This document shows positions 1-12,775 of a DNA stretch of 18,796 nt, one piece after another. The number at the start of each line of letters is the position of its first letter. Position 1 is the stretch's first letter. The stretch is from an uncultured Prevotella sp. (GTDB taxonomy: Bacteria; Bacteroidota; Bacteroidia; Bacteroidales; Bacteroidaceae): assembly GCA_947303825.1 (NCBI GenBank), contig CAMYZK010000013.1:1-18796 (forward strand). The letters run 5' to 3'. The notes below the pieces were generated by a model that saw only the letters and a program-made list of their open reading frames with translations, searched no databases and was not told where the DNA came from. A program made the position numbers and the translations under genes.

Positions 1-101
1 CGCATCAAGTTCAACATGGGCGTCTCGGAGAACTATTTCATGGAGATTGCCAAGTTCCGCGCCGCCCGCCTGCTCTGGGCCCAGATTGTGAAGCAGTATG
101 T
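1..101 (+). pseudogene. mutA: methylmalonyl-CoA mutase fragment (probably small subunit)
   Basis: The first 34 codons read FNMGVSENYFMEIAKFRA then ARLLWAQIVKQY. This is the highly conserved FxxGxxxNYFMEIAKxRAARxLWAxIV stretch of methylmalonyl-CoA mutase, an adenosylcobalamin enzyme of succinate-propionate metabolism. The NYF pattern favours the small (MutA) over the large subunit, but the piece is too short to be sure. In the family this stretch is followed by an (A)AKMxxxAxTSxWNxTxYDPYVNxLR block, which is absent; the frame instead enters a GC-rich repeat and then a surface-protein domain. The active-site barrel is interrupted and the cobalamin-binding domain is missing, so no mutase activity is expected from this ORF. 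Confidence 0.7.
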
Positions 102-711
102 AGCCCCCCTTTCGTCCCCCGAGGGGGACACAAATGTCCAAGCAAGTAATGAAGCCCCCTCGGGGGCCGTAGGGGGGGCCTTCACCCGCTTTGTCATCAA
201 CCCCGAGGCGACGACCCGCTATGACATTGGGCGCGACGCACCAGTGATGGCGGCCGACAGCGTCAACCTGCTCTATACCATGGCTGGCGGCGTGGCATAC
301 GCCATCAACGAGCGCCCGCTTGACGACGGCATCATCCGTCTCGCCATGCAGCTTACGAAGCCGGGCACCTATACCCTCACGCTGAGTCTGAAGGACGGCA
401 CTGTGCTCAGCGGTTCCGCTGCTGAGACCGTCTGGCTCATCGACAACGAGACAGGCACCCGTACGCAGCTTCTCCCCTCCCTTGGAGAGGGGTCGGGGAT
501 GGGCTCCTACACCTTTGAGGCTTCCGAGGCAGGCACCATCAGCAGCCGCTTCGTCATCGCCATTGGCAATGCGGAGCCTTCAGCTATCGACGAGACAGAG
601 ATGGGCGTGCCTCAACGCATAGACGGCATGTTCAACCTCGAGGGTCAGCGTATTGGTCAGCCCAGTCGTGGGTTATATATCAAGAACGGTAGAATCGTAT
701 ACAACAAATAA
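1..711 (+). CDS. 3' part of a chimeric ORF: mutase fragment fused to BspA-like C-terminal domain
   Basis: The frame is open from base 1, so the start lies outside the window; the Met at 16 is internal. Three parts can be seen. Codons 1-34 match methylmalonyl-CoA mutase. Codons 35-60 are encoded by a GC-rich repeat and read as Ser/Pro/Gly-rich filler. From about base 181 on the protein matches the C-terminal part of the BspA-like protein at 9119-12775: TRFVINPEATTRYDIGRDAP here aligns with TRLVVTPRATEGYDRGQDAP there, then YAINERP with YSLNEQP, and LIDNETGTRTQL with LLDKETGAVTAI. It ends in the tail MFNLEGQRIGQPSRGLYIKNG, split here as MFNLEGQRIG and GLYIKNGRIVYNK, the same type as in the other surface proteins. 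A second in-frame repeat adds LPSLGEGSGMGS. The BspA-like part is probably the upstream partner of the giant gene at 824. Whether the fusion is real or an assembly join cannot be decided here. Confidence 0.8.
   Translation, partial: RIKFNMGVSENYFMEIAKFRAARLLWAQIVKQYVAPLSSPEGDTNVQASNEAPSGAVGGAFTRFVINPEATTRYDIGRDAPVMAADSVNLLYTMAGGVAYAINERPLDDGIIRLAMQLTKPGTYTLTLSLKDGTVLSGSAAETVWLIDNETGTRTQLLPSLGEGSGMGSYTFEASEAGTISSRFVIAIGNAEPSAIDETEMGVPQRIDGMFNLEGQRIGQPSRGLYIKNGRIVYNK
102..181 (+). repeat. GC-rich inverted-repeat element at the fusion junction
   Basis: The element starts agcccccct (102-110) and ends agggggggcct (171-181), so its ends are inverted repeats. Inside are two small hairpins: gtccccc/gggggac (114-120 with 123-129) and gccccc/gggggc (around 154-167). 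It is translated in frame as SSPEGDTNVQASNEAPSGAV. The mutase similarity stops at its left edge and the BspA-like similarity starts at its right edge. Elements of this look are common as dispersed repeats in Prevotella-type genomes (general knowledge; no search was run). Confidence 0.75.
469..503 (+). repeat. in-frame GC-rich hairpin repeat inside the first ORF
   Basis: A G/C-rich insert with stem cccctc (474-479) and gagggg (487-492) and a 7-nt loop, followed by tcggggatggg. It adds the peptide LPSLGEGSGMG between a conserved segment (NETGTRTQL) and YTFEASEAGT. The paralogue at 9119-12775 has only a short ordinary stretch at this point (AVTAITEEASTFT). It therefore looks like a dispersed repeat that entered the coding sequence without breaking the frame. 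Confidence 0.6.
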
Positions 712-823: not shown

Positions 824-3800
824 ATGAAAAAGTTATTCTATATCATAATGGTGTGCTTCATTGCCACACTGACGGCAACGGCACAGGAGACAGCGACCCA
901 CCACCTGAAGGTGAGGGTAGAGCCCAGCGTTTCTCTCCATTTCAGCTTGAAGTGTTATGAACCCTCTGCGCAGATGCACAAAAGCGGGTACTTCTACGGT
1001 GCCTCAGAACTGCTTTACCTCAGGAGCGACACACTGGACGTAGTAGACGTAGAGCTGCCAGTAGATGCAGGCATTACCATTTGGATATCGGCATACGGAT
1101 CCGCCAATGGGTCTTTCGAGCCCATTGACTGGCGCGATGCCGGCACCGTGGTAGACGTTTACAGATACAACAACGGCACCAGCTACCATTGGCGCATGCC
1201 CAACCACGACGTAGATCTCGTGGGCACCTTCGAGTATGTCCCGTACTCTCCCAGCGAGGGCGAGAATCCCGGCATGGGCAGCTGGGACCCAGAGACGGGA
1301 ACGCTTATTTTGGAGGGCAGCAGCGAATACTGGCCCATTGGCTACAATCGTGACACCGACAAGGACAAGGTGCAGCGCTTCGTCCGTATCAGCAATGCCT
1401 TTGGCAATCGTACCGCAAGCTTCACGCACACCAACTATCCTAACTGCACCGTCATTGACTATAGCCACACCAATGCCGCCACTGTGACGTGCATGGACAG
1501 TAGGGAGGACATTACCACGTCTGTTGTGGAAGCCATCCTGCCTGCCACCGTCACCTATTTCGACACCGACGCCTTCAAGAACACCCACCTGCAGACCCTC
1601 GTGCTCTACTCCCTGACGCCACCCGAACTAAAAGGAAGGAAGTGGAACAGCGAAATTCGCGAATATGAGTGGGCCACGTCGTTCCCCGACTGCCCCGACA
1701 TGGTGGTGCGCGTGCCTGCCGAGGCAGTGCCCCTCTACCAGGCCGACGAGCACTGGAAGGAATATACCATCGTGCCGATGGAGAGCAACTATTCTAATCT
1801 CACCGTGCAGCTCATGGCCACCCCCGTGGCCGTCACGCTGGCTCAGTACAAGGGCATGAGCCTGTTGCTGACCGACAAGAAGAGCGGCCAGGCGCGTCGC
1901 TACCTGCTCAACGGACAGAACAACAGCTATGAGTTCCGCTACTTGCCCGTCAACTCCACGTTCAAGGTACAGCTGCTCAATGGTTATGGCACTGAGGTGG
2001 CTGTGCTCGACAACGTGTTCGTCGGCGAGGAGAACAAGACCGTTACCTTCGACCACCTGCGCCGTCCCCACCAGATGGTGCTGAACCTCAGTGACGGCAC
2101 GTCCTTCGTCGACCCGGCACTCTACGAAGTGACATGGCTCAACGGCGAGGGCAACTATATCAGTAAGGGATATGTGCTGAACGATGCCCTCGATGGCGAG
2201 CAGCTGCGCTACGCCATCCATCTCGACCGCTCGTTGGCCATGCAGTACACCACGACCGACAGCACCCTCATCACCGTGGGTGCCGAGGGCCAGCCGGACA
2301 ACATCGTGGTGCCGCTGCTGCCTATTGCCAAGACTAATGCCACCTTCACCGTGGTTGACGCGCAGACTCATCTGGGCATTAATGGCGCCACCATCATCGT
2401 GACCCAGCGCTTAGACTATGGCGAGGCAGGCAGCGTGACTACACTTACCACTGGCATCGACGGAAAAGCTATCGGTGAGGTGCTGGCCACCATGAGCCAC
2501 GTCAGCGTGAAGTCGCCGCTGCATGGCACGCAGGAGTTCATCATCAACATGGCCGACAGCACCAACTTCCGCATGGCCTTCGTCACTGCCGAGGGCACCA
2601 CCATCCGCCTGCAACATACCTATCAGGAGGCTGTCGCTGCCGATGCGACACCTACTGTGGTGCAGGGCTATGACAAAGGCCAGAGCCTGAACTACGAGTT
2701 CAAGGCCATACTGCCCGACGGCAGCGAAAAGGCACTGACCGACTATTTGGCCAACTATCCCGTCTATACCCTCTACGACCAACTGCCGCAGGGCACGAAG
2801 GTATGCGTCAAGGCTACTGGTGTCAATGACGAGATAGAGCCTGTGGAGGCCGAGGCCGTGGTGGGTTCGGACGGCATCGTCGCCGTCACCCTGCCCATCG
2901 TGCAGCGAGGCTACCTCAGCGTGCGCTATGTCAAGAGCGACAGCCGCCATCCCGCCGTGCTGCTCTTCAACGATGCCACTGGCGAGCTGGTGAAGAAGGT
3001 GGGCTTCGGCAACTATATGACAGCCGAGTTCCGCAACTTGACTGCCGGCAACTATCTTGTGGCCGTGATGAGCAACGGACCCGCCTATCAACTTATCAAC
3101 AGCAGGAGCCAGTTGCTGCAGTACGAGGCCGACAAGGACTATGTCAGTCAGCAGGTGACACTTGCCGATGGCCGACTGACTGAGGCCGTCTTCGACAAGG
3201 TGCCGCTCACCATGACCCAGTTGGAGACCAACCTCACTACGCGGCGCGCACTGTGGAAGGCGGCGGCAGCCTACATTGGATTCCAGACGGGCATCGAAAT
3301 CAAGGTCGAGTTCAAAGGCCTCACGGAGCGCACCTACCGCCGGGACTGGTACACCTATTACGACCACTCGAAGTATCCCACCGACTGCAAGGTGGAGGTT
3401 TATCTGCCCGAGGGCATGGCGAGGCCTCTAGCCCAGAGGAGCCTCCGCATGTATAGCAGCACTGGCTATACATGGCCCATAGGAAACGGCGTGTACATGC
3501 AAGGCGGCGATATAGAAACACTGTTGGCAACTGATCCCAGTCTATTCTTCATTGACCACAGCACCATACAGTGGACCACTGCCAAGTCGGTGTGGAACGA
3601 GCGTGAGCGCAAGCTCACTGTTGAATGGCCACACATCGACGAAGATGGTAAGATGTATATTGTCACTGGAGCAGGGAATGCAGGTACCTACACCCCTGAG
3701 GTCTACCTCACCTATACGCTGAACGGCAAACAGTACCGTGAGGTGCTCGAAACAAACACCCTGACGGTGGAAACGTGCGACATCAAAGCGCCCGAGGTGG

Positions 3801-6800
3801 TGACGCAGCCACGATTCAGGGTGAGCGGCCATGCCCAGTACACGGGCGAGAAAGTGATGGTTAAAGATCAGTTGCTTAGTGACAGATGGGCATTTGGAGG
3901 ATGGATTGAAAACTGGAGTTATAAAGAGATTCCCTACGAGGCCATCACCATCATGGATGGCAACCAGCCCATCGGCAAGGCTGCAGTGAACAGCTCCGGC
4001 ACATGGGAGGCATGGGTGACGTTGCCAAAGACCACCACACTTTCCAAGCACAACATCTATGCTACGGTGAAACCCTATAAGGGACAGGACTACACCTTCA
4101 ACACAGAGGTGAAGGAGGTGACCTACGACCCCGATGCCGTGGTGCCTCTGGCGACGAAGATGACCTTCTTCAACCACCACCCGGCGCACCTGGAGAGCAT
4201 CGATGTGACCTTCGACTACATGGAAGGCAAGTGTACGCCCCGCAGCTATGGCTTCTCCAATGAGCAGGGCTACGACACCGACTTCACCTTCGAGGTGAAC
4301 CTGTCGAACAACGACACCACGAAGGTCTACGCCTGCGCACTGTTTGTGGCCACCAACGGCCCCGATGCTACGGAGGATGTCCTCTGGGCGCACTACAACA
4401 AGCGCAAGAACCGCTGGATAGCCTACGCGAAGTACAACACCCGCTCTTTGCCCTATTCGGTCATGGTAGAGCCCTATTACCACAAGGAGAACATTGGTTC
4501 AGCCGAAGATGTCAACGAGGGATATAACCTCTTCGATACCCTTCTCAACAATGACAACCAGGCCACTGCCGAGTTGCTGACGCGCTTCAGCCAGTTGGTA
4601 GACCAAGACTATCAGGCAGCTCTGAGCGGCGACCCGTCGAAGGCCATCGACCCTGCCGAGCTCAACAGCGTCATGCAGCAGCTCTATGCACTCACCGGGG
4701 GCGGCGAATACCAGGCCGGCTCTACCACCAGCGACGGCAACATAGATGCGCTGCTGAAGAGCATAGACGACTATGACAGTCCAATGAAGAACGTAAGCAA
4801 CATCTACGCCGACGTGCAGAAGAAACTCAACGAGGTGGGCGAGCTGGTGGAGGGCATCACCACCAGCCCTGCCACGGGGCTTACCCCTGAAGGCCTGCTG
4901 GCCGACGGCTACGAAGAGCTGAAGCTCGACGACGGCACCTCTATCTTTGTGCGCACCACCGAGGATGGCGGCTGGACGTATGTTGACTTTGCCAAGAACG
5001 TGAAGATGGATATATCGGCCGACGCCAAGCTGGCTCGCATGTTAAAGGGGCCGCAACGCATGTCGACAGGCGAGGAGTGGTTCTATACTGCCGTGGAGAT
5101 GGTCTATCTCACGGCACAAGACTTCGTCGATGTGGTGGGCAAGGTGGCCGACGCCTGCTCGGCAGTGGTCGATGCCTGTAGCCTGCACATTGACTGGTGT
5201 GTGTCCAAGCAGAAAGACTTTATTGCCATGGTGGAGTTCAACAACAAGAACCTCAGCTGGGTGGAACGTGGCTTTGCCAACCTGCGGCTCAAGTTCGCCT
5301 ACGACTCCATGACCAAGTCCATCACTGCCGCACAGAAGCTAAAGGATGCCGTGTCAAAGTTCAAGTTTGGCGACGGTGTGGGAACGCTGGCCAGCTTCTA
5401 TTCGCTGGCCAAGAACTATATGGGTTTCAAAGACCAGGACGAGAAGCTCTATAAGCTTGCCATGAGCCTGCCCATTAAGGACTGCGACGACTGGCAGAAG
5501 GCGGTCGAGCTGCAAGGCAAGATCATGAACTTCATCATGTGGATCATACCTTACCAGACGGCAACGCTCTTTGCCGACTTTGCCGCCGTGTCTACTGGAC
5601 TGGCCAGTCTGATGGGCATCACCGTCGACCCTTCAGGTGCCACTTGGTTAGGCGTGGCCCTCTCGTTTGCCAAGATTGCTATCAGCTATGCTGCCGACAA
5701 GATCTATCAGGACCGCTACGAGTGTGCCCTCGAGGTGTTCAACTATGAGAAGGCCGACATCATCTGCGACAAGAAGAAGACCTGCCAGCAGCGAGGCGAC
5801 TGTCCCACGTGCGTCAGCACCGGCACCTGCCCCCAATGGCCCAAGCTGCCCAAGGAGCCCAAGTATCCCACTACAGATCCCCTCATCGACCCTTCGGGCT
5901 TCGTCTATGAGGGTGTGGAGAGCAACCGCTTGGAGGGCGTCACCACCACCGTGTTCTACAAGGAGGTGACCAATGACATCTTTGGCAACGATGTGGAGAA
6001 TGTATCCCTATGGGATGCTGAGAACTACGACCAGCAGAACCCGCAGCTCACCAACGAGAACGGCGAGTACGGCTGGATGGTGCCTTCAGGCCTCTGGCAG
6101 GTGAAATACGAGAAGCAGGGCTATCAGACCGAGTTTAGTGAGTGGCTGCCCGTGCCGCCGCCACAGCTCGACGTCAACCAGGGCATGACAACGATGGCAT
6201 CGCCCGTGGTGAGCGATGTAAAGGCTACGCCAAATGCTGTGCAGATCACCTTCGACAAGTACATGCGTGCCGACAGCCTGACCACTAACCGCATCTTCGT
6301 CACCCGTAACGGGCAGAAGGTCAACGGTACCATCGACCCGCTGCTGCCCGCTGATGAGGCTGAGAACATGGTGCACCTCACCAACCGCGTAAACTTCGTG
6401 CCTGCCGCACAGTTGCCCGCAGGTCAGAAGCTGACGCTTACCGTCAAGGGCGACGTCGTGAGCTATGCCGGCGTGGAGATGGGCAGCGACTTCCAACAGG
6501 AGTTCGACATCAAGGCTGCCGTAGAGCGCATAGAGGCTCCCGCAGCCATCAACGTCACCTACGACCAGGGCTATGCACTCACCATACAGGCCCTGCCCGC
6601 CGAGGCTGCTGCCGGCAAGCAGGTTAAGGCACGCATACTGAGTGATATGATTGCTACCATTGACTTGGCACCGCAAGGAACTCTTAACTCTTCACTCTTA
6701 ACTCTTAACTCGCAGGGCAAAGCTAATGTCACTCTCGTTGGCGAGGCCCACGGCACCACAGCCCTCGTGCTGGAGATGGCCGACGACCCGCTGGTAAGCA

Positions 6801-7264
6801 CGGCGGTGCAGGTAACGGTGCGTGGCGACGGCGACTTCATCTGCCCCATGCCCACCTCCAACTATCGGTCTAGCCAGGCCTATCCACAGGGCACGCAGAT
6901 CGCACTCTCCTGCGAGCTCTCAGAAGCCACCATCTACTACACCCTCGACGGCTCCTGCCCCTGCAGCACCGGCAACGACGTGCACCGCTACGACGCGCCA
7001 ATCACGCTAACCAGAGACATGGTGATAAAGGCCATGGCCACTGCTCCCGGCTATGCCGACAGCGATGTGGCCGAGCTCACCTTCCTCGTGGACAACGGCG
7101 ATGGCATCATGGAACTGCCCTACACACCAGCACCCTCGTCGCCCACTTACGTCTACGACCTGCAGGGCCGCAAATTGTCCAATAGTAAAATGGTAAAATG
7201 GTCAAATGGTCAAATGCCCAAGGGAGTGTATATCCGCAACGGCAAAAAGGTCGTAATTAAGTGA
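824..7264 (+). CDS. giant secreted multidomain surface protein (Ig-like, BspA-cap, chitobiase-like C-terminal modules)
   Basis: A 2146-residue protein. The ATG at 824 is chosen because it opens a signal peptide (MKKLFYIIMVCF...ATAQ); the frame extends upstream to 653 but only through repeats. Modules in order: an N-terminal beta region ending in an MPNHDVDLVGTF segment like InlB-type B repeats (about 125-150); one leucine-rich repeat plus a BspA cap, DAFKNTHLQTLVL...VRVPAEAVPLYQ (about 233-320); a long run of beta-sandwich segments (about 320-1200); a helical stretch (1300-1346); a hydrophobic helical centre (about 1413-1650); a cysteine cluster (to about 1670); a DPSGFVYEGV...WLPVPPPQLDV module (1689-1785); an SbsA-type Ig-like domain (about 1793-1899); a Big_2-like domain (1900-2000); a chitobiase C-terminal-like domain (IYYTLDGS, about 2007-2092); and the tail VYDLQGRK...KGVYIRNGKK. 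It is a collinear paralogue of the gene at 12786. A role in adhesion or glycan or host contact is inference; no catalytic site was recognised. Confidence 0.88.
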   Translation: MKKLFYIIMVCFIATLTATAQETATHHLKVRVEPSVSLHFSLKCYEPSAQMHKSGYFYGASELLYLRSDTLDVVDVELPVDAGITIWISAYGSANGSFEPIDWRDAGTVVDVYRYNNGTSYHWRMPNHDVDLVGTFEYVPYSPSEGENPGMGSWDPETGTLILEGSSEYWPIGYNRDTDKDKVQRFVRISNAFGNRTASFTHTNYPNCTVIDYSHTNAATVTCMDSREDITTSVVEAILPATVTYFDTDAFKNTHLQTLVLYSLTPPELKGRKWNSEIREYEWATSFPDCPDMVVRVPAEAVPLYQADEHWKEYTIVPMESNYSNLTVQLMATPVAVTLAQYKGMSLLLTDKKSGQARRYLLNGQNNSYEFRYLPVNSTFKVQLLNGYGTEVAVLDNVFVGEENKTVTFDHLRRPHQMVLNLSDGTSFVDPALYEVTWLNGEGNYISKGYVLNDALDGEQLRYAIHLDRSLAMQYTTTDSTLITVGAEGQPDNIVVPLLPIAKTNATFTVVDAQTHLGINGATIIVTQRLDYGEAGSVTTLTTGIDGKAIGEVLATMSHVSVKSPLHGTQEFIINMADSTNFRMAFVTAEGTTIRLQHTYQEAVAADATPTVVQGYDKGQSLNYEFKAILPDGSEKALTDYLANYPVYTLYDQLPQGTKVCVKATGVNDEIEPVEAEAVVGSDGIVAVTLPIVQRGYLSVRYVKSDSRHPAVLLFNDATGELVKKVGFGNYMTAEFRNLTAGNYLVAVMSNGPAYQLINSRSQLLQYEADKDYVSQQVTLADGRLTEAVFDKVPLTMTQLETNLTTRRALWKAAAAYIGFQTGIEIKVEFKGLTERTYRRDWYTYYDHSKYPTDCKVEVYLPEGMARPLAQRSLRMYSSTGYTWPIGNGVYMQGGDIETLLATDPSLFFIDHSTIQWTTAKSVWNERERKLTVEWPHIDEDGKMYIVTGAGNAGTYTPEVYLTYTLNGKQYREVLETNTLTVETCDIKAPEVVTQPRFRVSGHAQYTGEKVMVKDQLLSDRWAFGGWIENWSYKEIPYEAITIMDGNQPIGKAAVNSSGTWEAWVTLPKTTTLSKHNIYATVKPYKGQDYTFNTEVKEVTYDPDAVVPLATKMTFFNHHPAHLESIDVTFDYMEGKCTPRSYGFSNEQGYDTDFTFEVNLSNNDTTKVYACALFVATNGPDATEDVLWAHYNKRKNRWIAYAKYNTRSLPYSVMVEPYYHKENIGSAEDVNEGYNLFDTLLNNDNQATAELLTRFSQLVDQDYQAALSGDPSKAIDPAELNSVMQQLYALTGGGEYQAGSTTSDGNIDALLKSIDDYDSPMKNVSNIYADVQKKLNEVGELVEGITTSPATGLTPEGLLADGYEELKLDDGTSIFVRTTEDGGWTYVDFAKNVKMDISADAKLARMLKGPQRMSTGEEWFYTAVEMVYLTAQDFVDVVGKVADACSAVVDACSLHIDWCVSKQKDFIAMVEFNNKNLSWVERGFANLRLKFAYDSMTKSITAAQKLKDAVSKFKFGDGVGTLASFYSLAKNYMGFKDQDEKLYKLAMSLPIKDCDDWQKAVELQGKIMNFIMWIIPYQTATLFADFAAVSTGLASLMGITVDPSGATWLGVALSFAKIAISYAADKIYQDRYECALEVFNYEKADIICDKKKTCQQRGDCPTCVSTGTCPQWPKLPKEPKYPTTDPLIDPSGFVYEGVESNRLEGVTTTVFYKEVTNDIFGNDVENVSLWDAENYDQQNPQLTNENGEYGWMVPSGLWQVKYEKQGYQTEFSEWLPVPPPQLDVNQGMTTMASPVVSDVKATPNAVQITFDKYMRADSLTTNRIFVTRNGQKVNGTIDPLLPADEAENMVHLTNRVNFVPAAQLPAGQKLTLTVKGDVVSYAGVEMGSDFQQEFDIKAAVERIEAPAAINVTYDQGYALTIQALPAEAAAGKQVKARILSDMIATIDLAPQGTLNSSLLTLNSQGKANVTLVGEAHGTTALVLEMADDPLVSTAVQVTVRGDGDFICPMPTSNYRSSQAYPQGTQIALSCELSEATIYYTLDGSCPCSTGNDVHRYDAPITLTRDMVIKAMATAPGYADSDVAELTFLVDNGDGIMELPYTPAPSSPTYVYDLQGRKLSNSKMVKWSNGQMPKGVYIRNGKKVVIK
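6679..6711 (+). repeat. heptanucleotide array inside the giant gene
   Basis: About 4.7 units of 7 nt: aactctt, aactctt, cactctt, aactctt, aactc. It lies within the Big_2-like domain and encodes GTLNSSLLTLNS, between IATIDLAP and QGKANVTLVG. A longer array of the same family sits at the equivalent place in the paralogue (18506-18559). Because the unit is 7 nt, gain or loss of one or two units would shift the frame. Confidence 0.85.
7187..7218 (+). repeat. octanucleotide array in the C-terminal tail of the giant gene
   Basis: Units aaaatggt, aaaatggt, caaatggt, caaatgcc. They encode part of SKMVKWSNGQMPKG, which splits the usual YDLQGRK-KGVYIRNGKK tail. A matching array is found in the tail of the BspA-like gene at 12698-12729. 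Confidence 0.8.
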
Positions 7265-7386
7265 GAACAAAGCAGAACTTGCTCATGCTTTGTCGAGGGT
7301 GGGCGAGCTCGAGCTTTAGCTCAAGGTCGTAATTAAGTGAGAACAAAGCAGAACTTGCTCAAGCTTTAGCTTAAGGTCGTGGTTAA
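7247..7386 (+). repeat. duplicated 3' end of the giant gene
   Basis: A 39-nt stretch starting aaggtcgtaattaagtga, which includes the last codons and stop of the giant gene (7247-7285), is repeated exactly at 7323-7361. A shorter copy, aaggtcgtggttaa, follows at 7373-7386. The spacers also share gctc(g/a)agctttagct(c/t)aaggtcgt (7307-7330 and 7357-7380). This looks like tandem duplication across the gene end, leaving the first copy as the working terminus. Confidence 0.85.
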
Positions 7387-7502: not shown

Positions 7503-8288
7503 TCAGCTGCCAGCACCATTACAATCGGGACAGGTCATGCTACCGCTACCTTTGCGGAGTGAACTGCGACCAGCACCACCTGCTCCACCCCATGCTTCTT
7601 CGCCAGAGCCGCCACATTTCTTGCAGCCGTGAGTAACTCCGAATGGAGGACCAGGAATCTTTTCGTCATACGAACCTTTTCCACCGCACTTAGTGCATTT
7701 CACCTTGCCTGTACCATTACAAGTGGGACAGATATTTCCGGCTTGTGAGACGTTGATGCTGGCGGTCTGCTCGTCGGCAGTGAGCGTAATGATGCCGCTG
7801 CGCTTGCCTCCATCGTTGGCTGTTGTGGTCACCGTTAGCACGCCAGAGACATAATCGGCAGTGAAGCCGTCGGGGGCCGTCACTTGCAGGGCACCGTCAG
7901 TGTCGATTTTCACGGTCTTACTGCCGCCGTCCTTCTCAAATTCCAACGTGTCTTTCTCAGCAGTGATGTGCGTACACTTGGCCATCTGTCTTACAGCGAT
8001 TGTTGCCGTCACCTCGCCCGAAGCTAACACGATGTTGCCCTCGCGCACTTTGCCAGAGTCGTTCTTCGCAACTTTGACCAGCAGTGAGCTGTCCTGCAAC
8101 TCAGTAGTTACCCACTCGGGACACTCATTAACTTCCCATGAGCCGTCGGAGCTAACACTTACAGGCGCCTCGCCACCCTCAAGGGTGAACTCTACTTGCG
8201 CCTTGTCGGGGGTGATAAAAGTGGCACGATGGCAAGCGCCAAGCGTCAGCAGTGCCACGAGAATTGCAATTAACGATAAGTTCTTCAT
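7503..8288 (-). CDS. lipoprotein with two BACON domains and a DnaJ-type zinc-binding cysteine-rich module
   Basis: A 261-residue protein. It starts MKNLSLIAILVALLTLGAC, a lipoprotein signal peptide with Cys19 as the likely lipidated residue. Residues about 26-103 and 104-182 form two BACON-type beta-sandwiches: each has F-x-x-GG, a W or equivalent core residue, an LxVxxxxNDxGKxRxGxI pattern, and ends in VRQMA or VSQAG. BACON domains are common at the N-terminus of Bacteroidota surface proteins and are thought to help bind glycans or mucin. The C-terminus carries four CxxCxGxG motifs, CPTCNGTG (187), CTKCGGKG (198), CKKCGGSG (222) and CPDCNGAG (253), which is the zinc-binding pattern of DnaJ/Hsp40. 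There is no J domain, so it is not a classical Hsp70 partner. The last motif sits at the very end of the protein. No acidic surface-export signal follows Cys19, so which side of the outer membrane it faces is unclear. It is transcribed alone from its own promoter, opposite to its neighbours. Confidence 0.88.
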   Translation of the reverse strand: MKNLSLIAILVALLTLGACHRATFITPDKAQVEFTLEGGEAPVSVSSDGSWEVNECPEWVTTELQDSSLLVKVAKNDSGKVREGNIVLASGEVTATIAVRQMAKCTHITAEKDTLEFEKDGGSKTVKIDTDGALQVTAPDGFTADYVSGVLTVTTTANDGGKRSGIITLTADEQTASINVSQAGNICPTCNGTGKVKCTKCGGKGSYDEKIPGPPFGVTHGCKKCGGSGEEAWGGAGGAGRSSLRKGSGSMTCPDCNGAGS

Positions 8289-8625: not shown

Positions 8626-8680
8626 GCTACTGAAAGGACGCAAGAAAGCGAAGCGACTGAAAGAACCGAAGGGACGCAAG

Positions 8681-8804
8681 AACTCCAGTAACTCATGAAC
8701 TCATAAACTCATGAACTCATAAACTCATGAACTCCAGTAACTCCTGAACTCATAAACTCATAAACTCATGAACTCATAAACTCTTGAACCTCCTGAACTG
8801 CGTG
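8681..8804. repeat. octanucleotide AACTCATR array in the gene-free region
   Basis: Fourteen or fifteen units of 8-9 nt, mostly alternating aactcatg and aactcata, with variants aactccagt, aactcctg, aactcttg and aacctcctg. The aactc core is shared with the 7-nt arrays inside both giant genes (6679 and 18506). Confidence 0.88.
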
Positions 8805-8930: not shown

Positions 8931-9061
8931 CTTTCATTACTTGTTATTAGTAAGCCAGCAAGAGACCTCTGGTCGCTCTCATTGTCTGTTTTGTCGCCTT
9001 TATTGTTTCTTTTCTTACCATATTGTAACTTTATGTCAAAATAATTGCAGCAATATGCATG

Positions 9062-9088
9062 TTGTTTGGATTTTTTTTTGTATCTTTG
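9062..9088 (+). promoter_or_regulatory. promoter of the BspA-like/giant gene operon
   Basis: TATCTTTG at 9081-9088 is a perfect TAnnTTTG -7 box 30 nt before the ATG at 9119. Upstream, TTG (9062-9064) or TTTG (9065-9068) may be the -33 element, but the spacing (16 or 12 nt) is shorter than the usual ~20. The spacer contains nine T in a row (9071-9079). Confidence 0.6.
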
Positions 9089-9118
9089 CGCACTATAGTA
9101 TATTTTCTACCAGTAACT

Positions 9119-12100
9119 ATGAAACGAAGATTATTATTACTAAGCACCCTTTTAGCTCTGCTACTGTCGGTCTCGGTCTCTGCCCAGCAATGGACGGTGA
9201 TAGAGCTGCCCGCAAAGGTGTCTGACATGCCGCAGCTGGTGCAAGACCAGTTTGGCTGTACCTACCAGGAGCTGCCCGACAAGTACGAGCTCACCCATGT
9301 GCGATTTACGGGTACCGATTTCTATCGCGAGGACTACGACAACGAAGGGCAGAATGCCATCAAAGCCCTGGTCATTAAAGCAAAGGTTCTTGACTTGTCG
9401 CAGGTGAAGGACAACGAAGAGAGCCGTCAGTGGTATGCCGACAGCTATTACTACAAAGACGATTATCCCGGCCCCGCACGTATGTATTACTTTATCAGCT
9501 ACTTCACTAAAGACTCACTCGAGCACTTTCTCTTCCCCAAGACGATGACTCGTATCAACAGCAGCTTTGGCGGCGGAAAGAAGCTAAAGCAGGTGACATG
9601 GCCCGACCGTGTAGAGAATATATGGTCAAACATGTTCAGTAACTGTGAAGGCTTGGAAGAGATGACTATTCCCGAGGGGGTAACAGTGCTGCCAGACCAA
9701 TGCTTCCGCGGATGTTCGTCGCTTACCAGCGTCACCCTGCCCTCCACGCTGAAGACTGTTGGCGACCAGGTGTTCCGTAGCTGCAATGCCCTGGAGACCT
9801 TTGCCTTCCCCGACGGCGTGGAGGCCATAGGCAACGACAGCTTCCTCTACTGCAAGGGGCTCAAGCGGGTCGTGCTGCCGCAATCTGTCACTAGCTTAGG
9901 CTACGGCACCTTTAACCGCTGTGATAATCTGGAGAGCGTCGCCCTGCCCGACAGGGTGAAGGAGATTGGCGGTAGCATGTTCTCCTGCTGCTATAAGCTG
10001 ACCAGCGTCAAACTGCCCGACAGCACGGAGACCATCGCCGGTGATGCCTTCTCCTATTGCTCTGCATTGAAGAGTGTCACCGTGCCAGCAGGAGTAACCT
10101 CCATCGGAACGAGCGCTTTCAGGCAGACCGCCTTGGAGGAGTTCGACATGCCCGATGCCGTCACCACACTGGGCGAGTATGTCTTCGAGGGCTGCAAACA
10201 GCTGCGACGGGTGCACCTCAGCCGACGGCTGACCACCATCCCCGTGCGCACCTTCAGCGACTGTCAGGCACTGGAGGAGGTGAACATCCCACAGCGTGTC
10301 ACACGCATAGAGCACGATGCCTTTGTGCGCTGCTACAAGATGCCCTCGCCGCTGCTGCCCGAGGGTTTGACGCATCTTGACGAGTACGCCTTCTGGGACA
10401 CGCGCTTCGACCACATCAACCTGCCCTCCACCTTGCAGATTATCGGCAGGGAGTGCTTCCGCTACAGCCACCTGCGCAGCATCGACGTACCGGCCAATGT
10501 GGTGGAAATAAAGCAGGGAGCCTTTGAATACTGTGACAGTCTGCGCCACGCCACCCTGCCCGAGGGGTTGCTCTACCTGCAGAACGAGGCGTTTCGCGAC
10601 TGTCCTTTGCTAGAAGACGTGGCCCTGCCTGCCGGCCTGCGCGTTCTGGGCGAGTGGGTGTTCCACGGCAACAAGAGCAAGAAGACTTTCGTACAGCCAC
10701 CATTGGTCAACGTGGTGCCCAATCACATCTGCTGTGCCTGTGAGAACCTGACCAGCGTCACCCTGCACAACCGCATCACCCGCATTGACGGCAATGCCTT
10801 CGACGGCTGTAAGAAGCTTTCCCGCATCGACCTGCCCGAAGGACTGGAGACCATTGGCAGCTGGGCTTTCGTCAACTGCCCGCTCACTGAAATCAACATT
10901 CCTTCATCAGTGCGCAACATCGAACCCCGTGCTTTCAACGGAGGCCTGTACAGCCGTGTGGTGGTGCCCGAGGGCGTAGAGAAAATACGTGAGCGTGCCT
11001 TCTACAGTAAGAACCTGCGCTATGTGGATTTTCCAAGTACCGTCTCGCTGCTTGAGGAATGGGCTTTCCAGGGCGACGGCCCGGCCTGCGACAGCGTCAT
11101 CATACGCAATCCCCTGCCACCACTCACCTGGGGCGAGCAATATCGTAGCTGGCATGGCGGCACCCTCTATGTTCCAGCACAGTCGGTGGAGGCATACAAG
11201 AATGATGGCGTGTTCAAGAAAGGCTTTGTGAACATCCTGCCCCTCACGGGCTACGATGCCAAGAACATTGTGGTGGCAACCACGGTGTCTACCGACTCCA
11301 CCTATTTCCCCATTGTCAACAATGCCAACCTGACCATAGCTCATCAGGACTGGCATAAGGACTTCTGCTCCGGTCACCTGCATGTGGGCAGCAAGGTCAA
11401 CTGGCCTCTCGACCACCTGCGCTATGACTATCGCCAGCCATGGCAGAACTATGACTGGGAAAACAAGCAGGCCTCTGGCTCCCTCATCAACGAGGGAACG
11501 ATGACGGTGCAGTCGATGGAGGTGAACCTGGAGTACCCCGTAGACCAGTGGCTCTTCTTCACTGCTCCCTTCGACATGAAGGCCAGCGACCTGGTCTGCA
11601 ACGACCCGCGCACACCCTTCGTGCTGCGCACCTTCGACGGGGCACAGCGAGCCAGTGGCAACCATGCCCGGGTGTGGGCCGATGTTGACCCGCAGGCCAC
11701 GCTGCAGGCCGGCCGGGGCTACATACTGCAATATGGTTCCTACGCCTATCAGTCGGGCTTTAACAGCTGGAGCAGGATGAATGCCGACAAGGTGTTCAAC
11801 CTGAAGAACTCCTCGCCGCTGCACACCTTTGCACTCAGCAGCCAGCCCGTCACCATTCCTCTCGCGGAATACAAGGGGACCTATCCGCACAACGAGGGTT
11901 GGAACATGGTGGGCAATCCCTTCATGGCCTACTTCGACATAGAGCAGCTGGAGAGCGATGCTCCCATCATCGTGGCTGTTCGCAACAACTTCAAACACTT
12001 TCAAGCCGTCAGCCCCCTTGACGATGACTACCGCCTGAAACCCCTGGAGGCTTTCCTTGTCCAGCGCAGTACGGCCCAGACTTCCATTACCTTCAACCCG

Positions 12101-12775
12101 GCGGGGCGTCAGGCCGACTTTGTAAGCCACCGCGAGTCAACGAACAGTGCCCGCCATCTGCGTCGGCAGCAACTTCGTAGGCAGCGTGTAGTCTATGACG
12201 CAACGCTGTTGCACCACAGTGAGCAAGGCGACAGCCTTATGGCCACCACCCGCCTCGTCGTCACGCCGCGTGCTACCGAGGGCTACGACCGTGGACAGGA
12301 CGCTCCGCTCTTCACTATGGACGACGACTTCACCTCCCTCTACACCCGCAGTGGAGGACTGCGCTACAGTCTGAACGAACAGCCACCCACCACGCAGAGC
12401 GTGCAGCTGGGCATGCATCTGGCCGAGGCCGGAGCATACACCATCAGCATCACTACACACGGCAGTGAGGTTAGCGGTTTTGACAGCGGTGTCCTGCGCC
12501 TGCTCGACAAGGAGACAGGTGCTGTCACTGCTATTACCGAGGAGGCATCCACCTTCACCATCGACGAGCCCACGACGCTGAACAGCCGTTTCCTGCTTAT
12601 GCTGGGCGACGGCATCACCTCGGTAGAGTGTGTTGAGGCTTCCCCTCAACAAGACGATGCCGTCTACGACCTGCAGGGCCGCAAATTGTCAAATAGTAAA
12701 ATGGACAAATGGTCAGATGGTCAAATGCCAAAGGGCCTCTACATAAAGAACGGAAAGAAACACATACATTATTAA
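9119..12775 (+). CDS. BspA-like leucine-rich repeat surface protein
   Basis: A 1218-residue secreted protein. The start at 9119 gives a clean signal peptide (MKRRLLLLSTLLALLL...SAQ) and lies just past the promoter; an in-frame ATG at 9059 would sit upstream of the -7 box. Residues about 128-670 hold roughly 23 repeats of 22-23 residues with the LRR_5 (BspA/TpLRR) pattern LPxxVxxIGxxAFxxCxxLxxVxL, for example PEGVTVLPDQCFRGCSSLT. A BspA cap follows, TLYVPAQSVEAYKND, then a beta-rich region without a named family, and a C-terminal domain also found in the first ORF of the window. The tail is VYDLQGRK...KGLYIKNGKK. BspA-family proteins bind host matrix proteins or other cells in oral and gut bacteria; the same role here is inference. 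The gene is followed after 10 nt by the second giant gene, so the two are surely co-transcribed. Confidence 0.92.
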   Translation: MKRRLLLLSTLLALLLSVSVSAQQWTVIELPAKVSDMPQLVQDQFGCTYQELPDKYELTHVRFTGTDFYREDYDNEGQNAIKALVIKAKVLDLSQVKDNEESRQWYADSYYYKDDYPGPARMYYFISYFTKDSLEHFLFPKTMTRINSSFGGGKKLKQVTWPDRVENIWSNMFSNCEGLEEMTIPEGVTVLPDQCFRGCSSLTSVTLPSTLKTVGDQVFRSCNALETFAFPDGVEAIGNDSFLYCKGLKRVVLPQSVTSLGYGTFNRCDNLESVALPDRVKEIGGSMFSCCYKLTSVKLPDSTETIAGDAFSYCSALKSVTVPAGVTSIGTSAFRQTALEEFDMPDAVTTLGEYVFEGCKQLRRVHLSRRLTTIPVRTFSDCQALEEVNIPQRVTRIEHDAFVRCYKMPSPLLPEGLTHLDEYAFWDTRFDHINLPSTLQIIGRECFRYSHLRSIDVPANVVEIKQGAFEYCDSLRHATLPEGLLYLQNEAFRDCPLLEDVALPAGLRVLGEWVFHGNKSKKTFVQPPLVNVVPNHICCACENLTSVTLHNRITRIDGNAFDGCKKLSRIDLPEGLETIGSWAFVNCPLTEINIPSSVRNIEPRAFNGGLYSRVVVPEGVEKIRERAFYSKNLRYVDFPSTVSLLEEWAFQGDGPACDSVIIRNPLPPLTWGEQYRSWHGGTLYVPAQSVEAYKNDGVFKKGFVNILPLTGYDAKNIVVATTVSTDSTYFPIVNNANLTIAHQDWHKDFCSGHLHVGSKVNWPLDHLRYDYRQPWQNYDWENKQASGSLINEGTMTVQSMEVNLEYPVDQWLFFTAPFDMKASDLVCNDPRTPFVLRTFDGAQRASGNHARVWADVDPQATLQAGRGYILQYGSYAYQSGFNSWSRMNADKVFNLKNSSPLHTFALSSQPVTIPLAEYKGTYPHNEGWNMVGNPFMAYFDIEQLESDAPIIVAVRNNFKHFQAVSPLDDDYRLKPLEAFLVQRSTAQTSITFNPAGRQADFVSHRESTNSARHLRRQQLRRQRVVYDATLLHHSEQGDSLMATTRLVVTPRATEGYDRGQDAPLFTMDDDFTSLYTRSGGLRYSLNEQPPTTQSVQLGMHLAEAGAYTISITTHGSEVSGFDSGVLRLLDKETGAVTAITEEASTFTIDEPTTLNSRFLLMLGDGITSVECVEASPQQDDAVYDLQGRKLSNSKMDKWSDGQMPKGLYIKNGKKHIHY
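12698..12729 (+). repeat. octanucleotide array in the tail of the BspA-like gene
   Basis: Units aaaatgga, caaatggt, cagatggt, caaatgcc, encoding part of SKMDKWSDGQMPKG. It occupies the same place in the C-terminal tail as the array at 7187-7218 in the first giant gene, although the rest of the two proteins is unrelated. Confidence 0.8.

Follow-up and report, generated by a model that had tools for sequence, protein, structure and literature searches.

Introduction

Rickettsia palindromic elements are approximately 150 bp in length and are inserted in unrelated genes, often in frame (excerpt of PMC10969869). REP elements are mostly intergenic, with some copies located inside genes (PMC3733652, in excerpt). 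For draft genomes of Bacteroidia, contig breaks and assembly errors are described at repeats, MITEs among them (PMC5771137, also in excerpt).

The window analyzed here, a stretch of 18,796 nucleotides from an uncultured Prevotella sp., starts with an open reading frame in which a methylmalonyl-CoA mutase sequence is joined to the C-terminal end of a surface protein at a palindromic element. As far as the excerpt on Rickettsia goes, the Prevotella element appears comparable to the Rickettsia elements in that it is a short palindrome found in frame in unrelated protein genes, where each copy encodes a similar peptide (PMC10969869). It differs in that it belongs to another phylum and is shorter (mostly 26–28 residues, compared with approximately 150 bp), and in that it is present in both orientations, with one reading phase for each. 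REP elements are likewise many-copy hairpin repeats, some of which are inside genes; however 28 of 29 sampled Prevotella copies are within open reading frames of at least 200 aa, whereas the REPs in the excerpted source are mostly intergenic (PMC3733652). The error proposed below resembles those of the Bacteroidia drafts in its location at a repeat, but the repeats in that excerpt are at least as long as the sequencing reads and the repeat in the present contig is only about 80 bp (PMC5771137).

The first open reading frame of the contig

Contig C13 constitutes the entire window and base 1 is therefore a contig end. The source MAG consists of 385 contigs, totals 2.63 Mb and has a completeness of 70.7%. 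Its highest-numbered contig has a size of 2504 bases, and contigs shorter than this may have been omitted from the MAG. That contig (L317, G000:C385) is apparently masked, i.e. 2504 of its 2504 bases are N.

Bases 1–711 of the forward strand form a single frame that is open throughout. Positions 1–99 display an internal fragment of mutA, the gene of the methylmalonyl-CoA mutase small subunit, which ends with ...AQIVKQY. A search of the translated positions 1–180 shows a PF01642 match at residues 1–36 (E-value = 8.7e-14). The small subunit model TIGR00642 matches residues 1–34 (E-value = 4.8e-10), which is under the full-length cut-off, as expected for a fragment. The mutase signature that the first-pass annotation read in the first 34 codons is borne out by both models. 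The fragment is at the tip of the contig and appears foreign to the locus.

Positions 100–144 on the same strand encode the left arm and spacer of the palindromic element, which by comparison of the spacers of P0123 and P0124 with that of P0241 are of the MutA type (VAPLSSPEGDTNVQA). The right arm (SNEAPSGAVGGA) is at positions 145–180. Its peptide is identical in both parent proteins, and it appears to contain the point where the sequence switches from one parent to the other. Positions 181–711, also on the forward strand, encode the C-terminal end of an LRR_5 (BspA-like) surface protein that is native to the locus. This region has a 39% identity (E-value = 2.2e-22) to the C-terminal part of the LRR_5 protein encoded at positions 9059–12775, in agreement with the original proposal that the frame from base 181 matches the C-terminal domain of the BspA-like protein.

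The same open reading frame contains a second, different palindrome-like insert (LLPSLGEGSGMGS) at positions 469–507 (forward strand). Sequence comparison shows that this insert is also present in P0241 and is absent from P0246 and G178; a paralogue on contig C48 of this genome has a similar insert.

The inverted repeat and the switch point

The arms of the inverted repeat are at positions 103–127 and 155–179. Each is 25 nt in length and the two are 88% complementary. The predicted RNA fold of positions 97–183 has a free energy of −52.4 kcal/mol (z = −5.1), and none of 200 shuffled sequences is equally stable. No Rfam family matches the window at the gathering threshold. The arms, the fold and the related sequences all confirm the initial view that the switch coincides with an inverted-repeat element of about 80 bp.

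The spacer residues Q47-A48 (bases 139–144) are as in the MutA proteins P0123 and P0124 (NVQAS), whereas P0241 has L-K at this location (NVLKS). Residues S49–A60 (bases 145–180) are identical in both parents when compared at the peptide level, and the sequence is of the surface type from base 181. Since the MutA-type spacer reaches at least base 144 and the surface type starts at 181, comparison of these sequences places the switch within positions 145–180, provided that the surface copy of this genome has the spacer of P0241. The first-pass annotation had assigned everything left of about base 102 to another place in the genome. The foreign nature of the tip is supported, but the boundary was set too far to the left, as the foreign sequence extends at least to base 144.

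Intact relatives of the two parents

In the MutA relatives read, the sequence ...AQIVKQY is mostly followed by EPKCDC or a variant of it, and then by further mutase sequence. A protein search with the joined sequence as query shows, among the matches listed, at least five MutA proteins (P0121–P0125) that have the element immediately after KQY. P0123 and P0124 display window residues 1–60 unchanged, including the element, followed by CQMHVC and mutase. The same element at KQY of MutA was not found in 398 genomes of the genus searched with residues 1–60, where 16 candidates were scored in some genomes; the window itself scored 122.4 bits and the best sequence elsewhere 64.7.

The 27-residue element peptide of P0124 occupies the place of seven linker residues in P0165, and 6oxc_B, the best-matching solved MutA, aligns with gaps across the element-bearing linker. 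A second, later linker of MutA also carries the element in P0121, P0122 and P0165, as well as in L169. In P0008, also a MutA, the KQY linker carries an unrelated insert (DGTQRRKDAEDSKSADEKLCVSASLRSE). P0007, which its score had suggested to be a fusion, was rejected as such and proved to be a mutase in which one segment is duplicated.

Complete mutA genes with the repeat in the linker, which the first-pass annotation had envisaged in this genome, thus exist in other assemblies, but the 385 contigs of this assembly contain no complete mutA and no mutA sequence besides the tip. The C-terminal end of mutB is at the edge of contig C213.

An intact relative of the surface part is P0241, an LRR_5 protein of 1065 aa with the sequence ...RLDK-APLSSPEGDTNVLKSNEAPSGAVGGA-FTRFVINPEA, where the element is at the same place as in the window. 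Of the P0241 residues aligned with window residues 35–236, 192 of 202 are identical. Homologues in G121 and G268 also have the element at this place (tblastn). The C48 paralogue and G320 have another insert at the element site, PSPMEGSS and PSPREGG, respectively.

Contig C87 of this genome matches P0241 residues 1–580 at 553 of 580 positions and runs off the contig end; the C13 counterpart is P0241 residues 864–1065. The near-equal divergence of the two contigs from P0241 fits one split gene. A search of this genome gave no match to P0241 residues 581–863, which correspond to the gap from C87 to C13. The missing LRR part that had been predicted for this genome is therefore present on C87, but it ends about 280 residues ahead of the repeat and not in the repeat. 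G178 has an intact LRR surface gene, which is followed by a homologue of the second open reading frame of the window, at positions 824–7264 (956 of 2199 aligned positions identical, 43%).

Origin of the fusion

The fusion between mutase and surface protein is in all probability an assembly chimera and not a gene; we place the probability of this at about 90%. mutA and the LRR surface-protein gene would be separate genes, each with a copy of one palindromic element of about 80 bp, and the mutA of the sample would thus carry the element as well. Within the common right arm, the assembler probably passed from the element of mutA into that of the surface gene, and this would have left a short mutA tip at the start of C13. 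In the sampled copies, each orientation of the element has a single reading phase, and the frame would therefore be kept when two coding copies of the same orientation are joined. Because all 29 sampled loci follow this phase rule, the open frame of positions 1–711 carries no weight with regard to a real fusion.

The chimera is indicated by the separate existence of intact relatives of both parents (P0123 and P0124 on one side, P0241 on the other) and by the position of the switch inside a peptide common to both (SNEAPSGAVGGA, between residues 48 and 61). MutA relatives run from KQY on into mutase, the LRR half of the genome's own surface gene is on C87, and the LRR gene of G178 precedes the homologue of the second open reading frame of the window. 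The mutase piece takes up at most 180 bases, presumably the size of a read, at the very start of a contig in a fragmented MAG. In addition, the retrieved sequences contain no second example of the fusion. Of 287 proteins, drawn from lists giving the best 120 of 130, 227 and 145 matches, none displays both signatures (119 have the mutase signature and 32 the surface signature), and the sequences with both at 327 retrieved loci are all copies of the window start itself, seven in number. The first-pass annotation had proposed either that copies of a dispersed repeat had recombined or that the assembly had joined two loci at the repeat. The latter fits best; the repeat is dispersed in relatives, and relatives of both parents carry it.

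Several observations count against a chimera. The element is single-copy in this genome, and the bin has no second, mutA-borne copy. Relatives with 47–97 pattern matches did assemble, and a repeat of about 80 bp is usually resolved by reads of 150 bases. The composition of C13 is normal, with a tetranucleotide correlation of 0.90, and P0241 residues 581–863 have no counterpart on the contigs. C13 as a foreign contig was also considered and was rejected, as it displays no compositional sign of this in comparison with 21 further contigs or stretches, one of which consists entirely of N.

A real recombination between copies of the element, in which the 5′ portion of mutA would have been joined to the 3′ portion of the surface gene and both genes broken, is favored by the element in relatives of both genes, the switch inside the common peptide, and a fixed phase that would yield a frame-preserving fusion. 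However the mutase sequence occupies only the tip of a contig, the remaining mutA is absent, the fusion was not seen in any other fetched sequence, and the fused protein would be without most of the mutase and without the entire LRR part. Such an event is unlikely. A reading without any join, in which the mutase residues would normally belong to this family of surface proteins, agrees with the single open frame but is hardly credible: the homologues read have surface-type sequence and never mutase before TRFVIN, the element of P0241 (95% identity) is preceded by RLDK, and P0124 also speaks against it. This candidate was rejected on the homologues and P0241.

It is conceivable, though doubtful, that the chimera joins two species, where the mutA tip originates from another Prevotella present in the sample and not from the mutA of the MAG itself; this is a sub-case that overlaps with the assembly chimera. 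It would account for the single copy of the element in the genome. The best match of the 99-nt tip is G083 (96.9%), whereas the mutB fragment on C213 is closest to RGIG1522 (87.0%) and has an 84.3% identity to G083. However 99 nt are too little for such a comparison and other pairs disagree likewise, e.g. G180 versus G083 gives 92.9 and 85.7. Judged by this mutB fragment, the three nearest named relatives are MAGs of Prevotella obtained from goat, water buffalo and red deer.

With an assembly chimera as the preferred reading, annotation of the fusion as a gene should be avoided, and the sequence to the left of the switch (within 145–180) should be regarded as part of another locus. More generally, a coding palindrome present in tens of copies can yield in-frame, plausible but false fusions in metagenome assemblies, which stay in frame because coding copies of the same orientation share a phase.

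The coding palindromic element in Prevotella

The real feature underlying the fusion is the element itself, which many genes of related Prevotella carry in frame. The element pattern, with one mismatch or less, has one match in this genome and 10–97 in each of 13 relatives (559 in all 14 genomes), where the relatives were chosen because earlier searches gave matches, and the number of matches is not the number of copies since both arms can match. At 29 loci sampled by the DNA pattern alone, 24 in forward and five in reverse orientation, the longest open reading frame is in one phase per orientation in every case. The other reading phases of the element often contain stop codons, so selection alone could account for the fixed phase.

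The peptide motif, with two substitutions or less, is present in 143 of 168 proteins checked (P0121–P0287 and P0089). The 25 proteins without it are all within P0242–P0268 and were retrieved via the surface part of the query. The element peptide has a length of 26–28 residues in 111 of 142 occurrences, as determined by a regular expression. In our own labelling, based on the Pfam matches listed, 52 motif proteins represent at least 33 named groups, plus three proteins without a Pfam match. The element-bearing groups include proteins that, from the names read from the accessions, we take to be AlaRS, LeuRS, PheT, topoisomerase I, RecQ, PFL, RseP, Obg and IspH. With this element it could be examined how unrelated enzymes, essential ones among them, tolerate the same insert of approximately 27 residues, a question raised earlier by the Rickettsia elements. 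NCBIfam contains models of the Rickettsia palindromic elements; there is no such model among the NCBIfam matches of four proteins.

The chances appear about even that this is a mobile coding palindrome of the Rickettsia style in Prevotella, inserted in dozens of families (among them aminoacyl-tRNA synthetases and topoisomerase I, as well as MutA, where it replaces native residues at two linkers), in either orientation with one phase for each, and spread by an enzyme. The evidence for a RAYT as the general mover is mixed, as is the link to the REP/RAYT system. PF01797 (Y1_Tnp, RAYT) is present in nine of the 13 element-bearing relatives and absent from G403, G023, G337, G180 and the genome of the window; G403 has 61 pattern matches to the element yet no PF01797 match. 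It is also found in five of 12 other genomes of the genus. Carriage by phage or plasmid was rejected, since the element has no match in viral contigs (searched with one exact 25-base pattern), phages or plasmids. A search of the literature, covering titles and abstract openings, found no report of a coding palindrome in Prevotella. Judged by this search, the element is new for Prevotella, although its kind is already known.

Other features of the contig

The next gene, at positions 824–7264 of the forward strand, is an open reading frame for a large surface-type protein, where the start codon is our own reading. Between the surface gene and this gene, positions 715–770 are G+C-rich and appear palindrome-like by eye. 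Positions 7247–7367, at the end of the 2203-aa open reading frame, have a 45-bp direct repeat, 98% identical, with a start-to-start distance of 76 bases. On the reverse strand, positions 7503–8288 contain a 261-aa open reading frame with, by eye, a lipoprotein-like start and CxxCxG-type cysteine repeats. The intergenic region at positions 8666–8795 displays an array of 8-base units (ACTCATGA/ACTCATAA).
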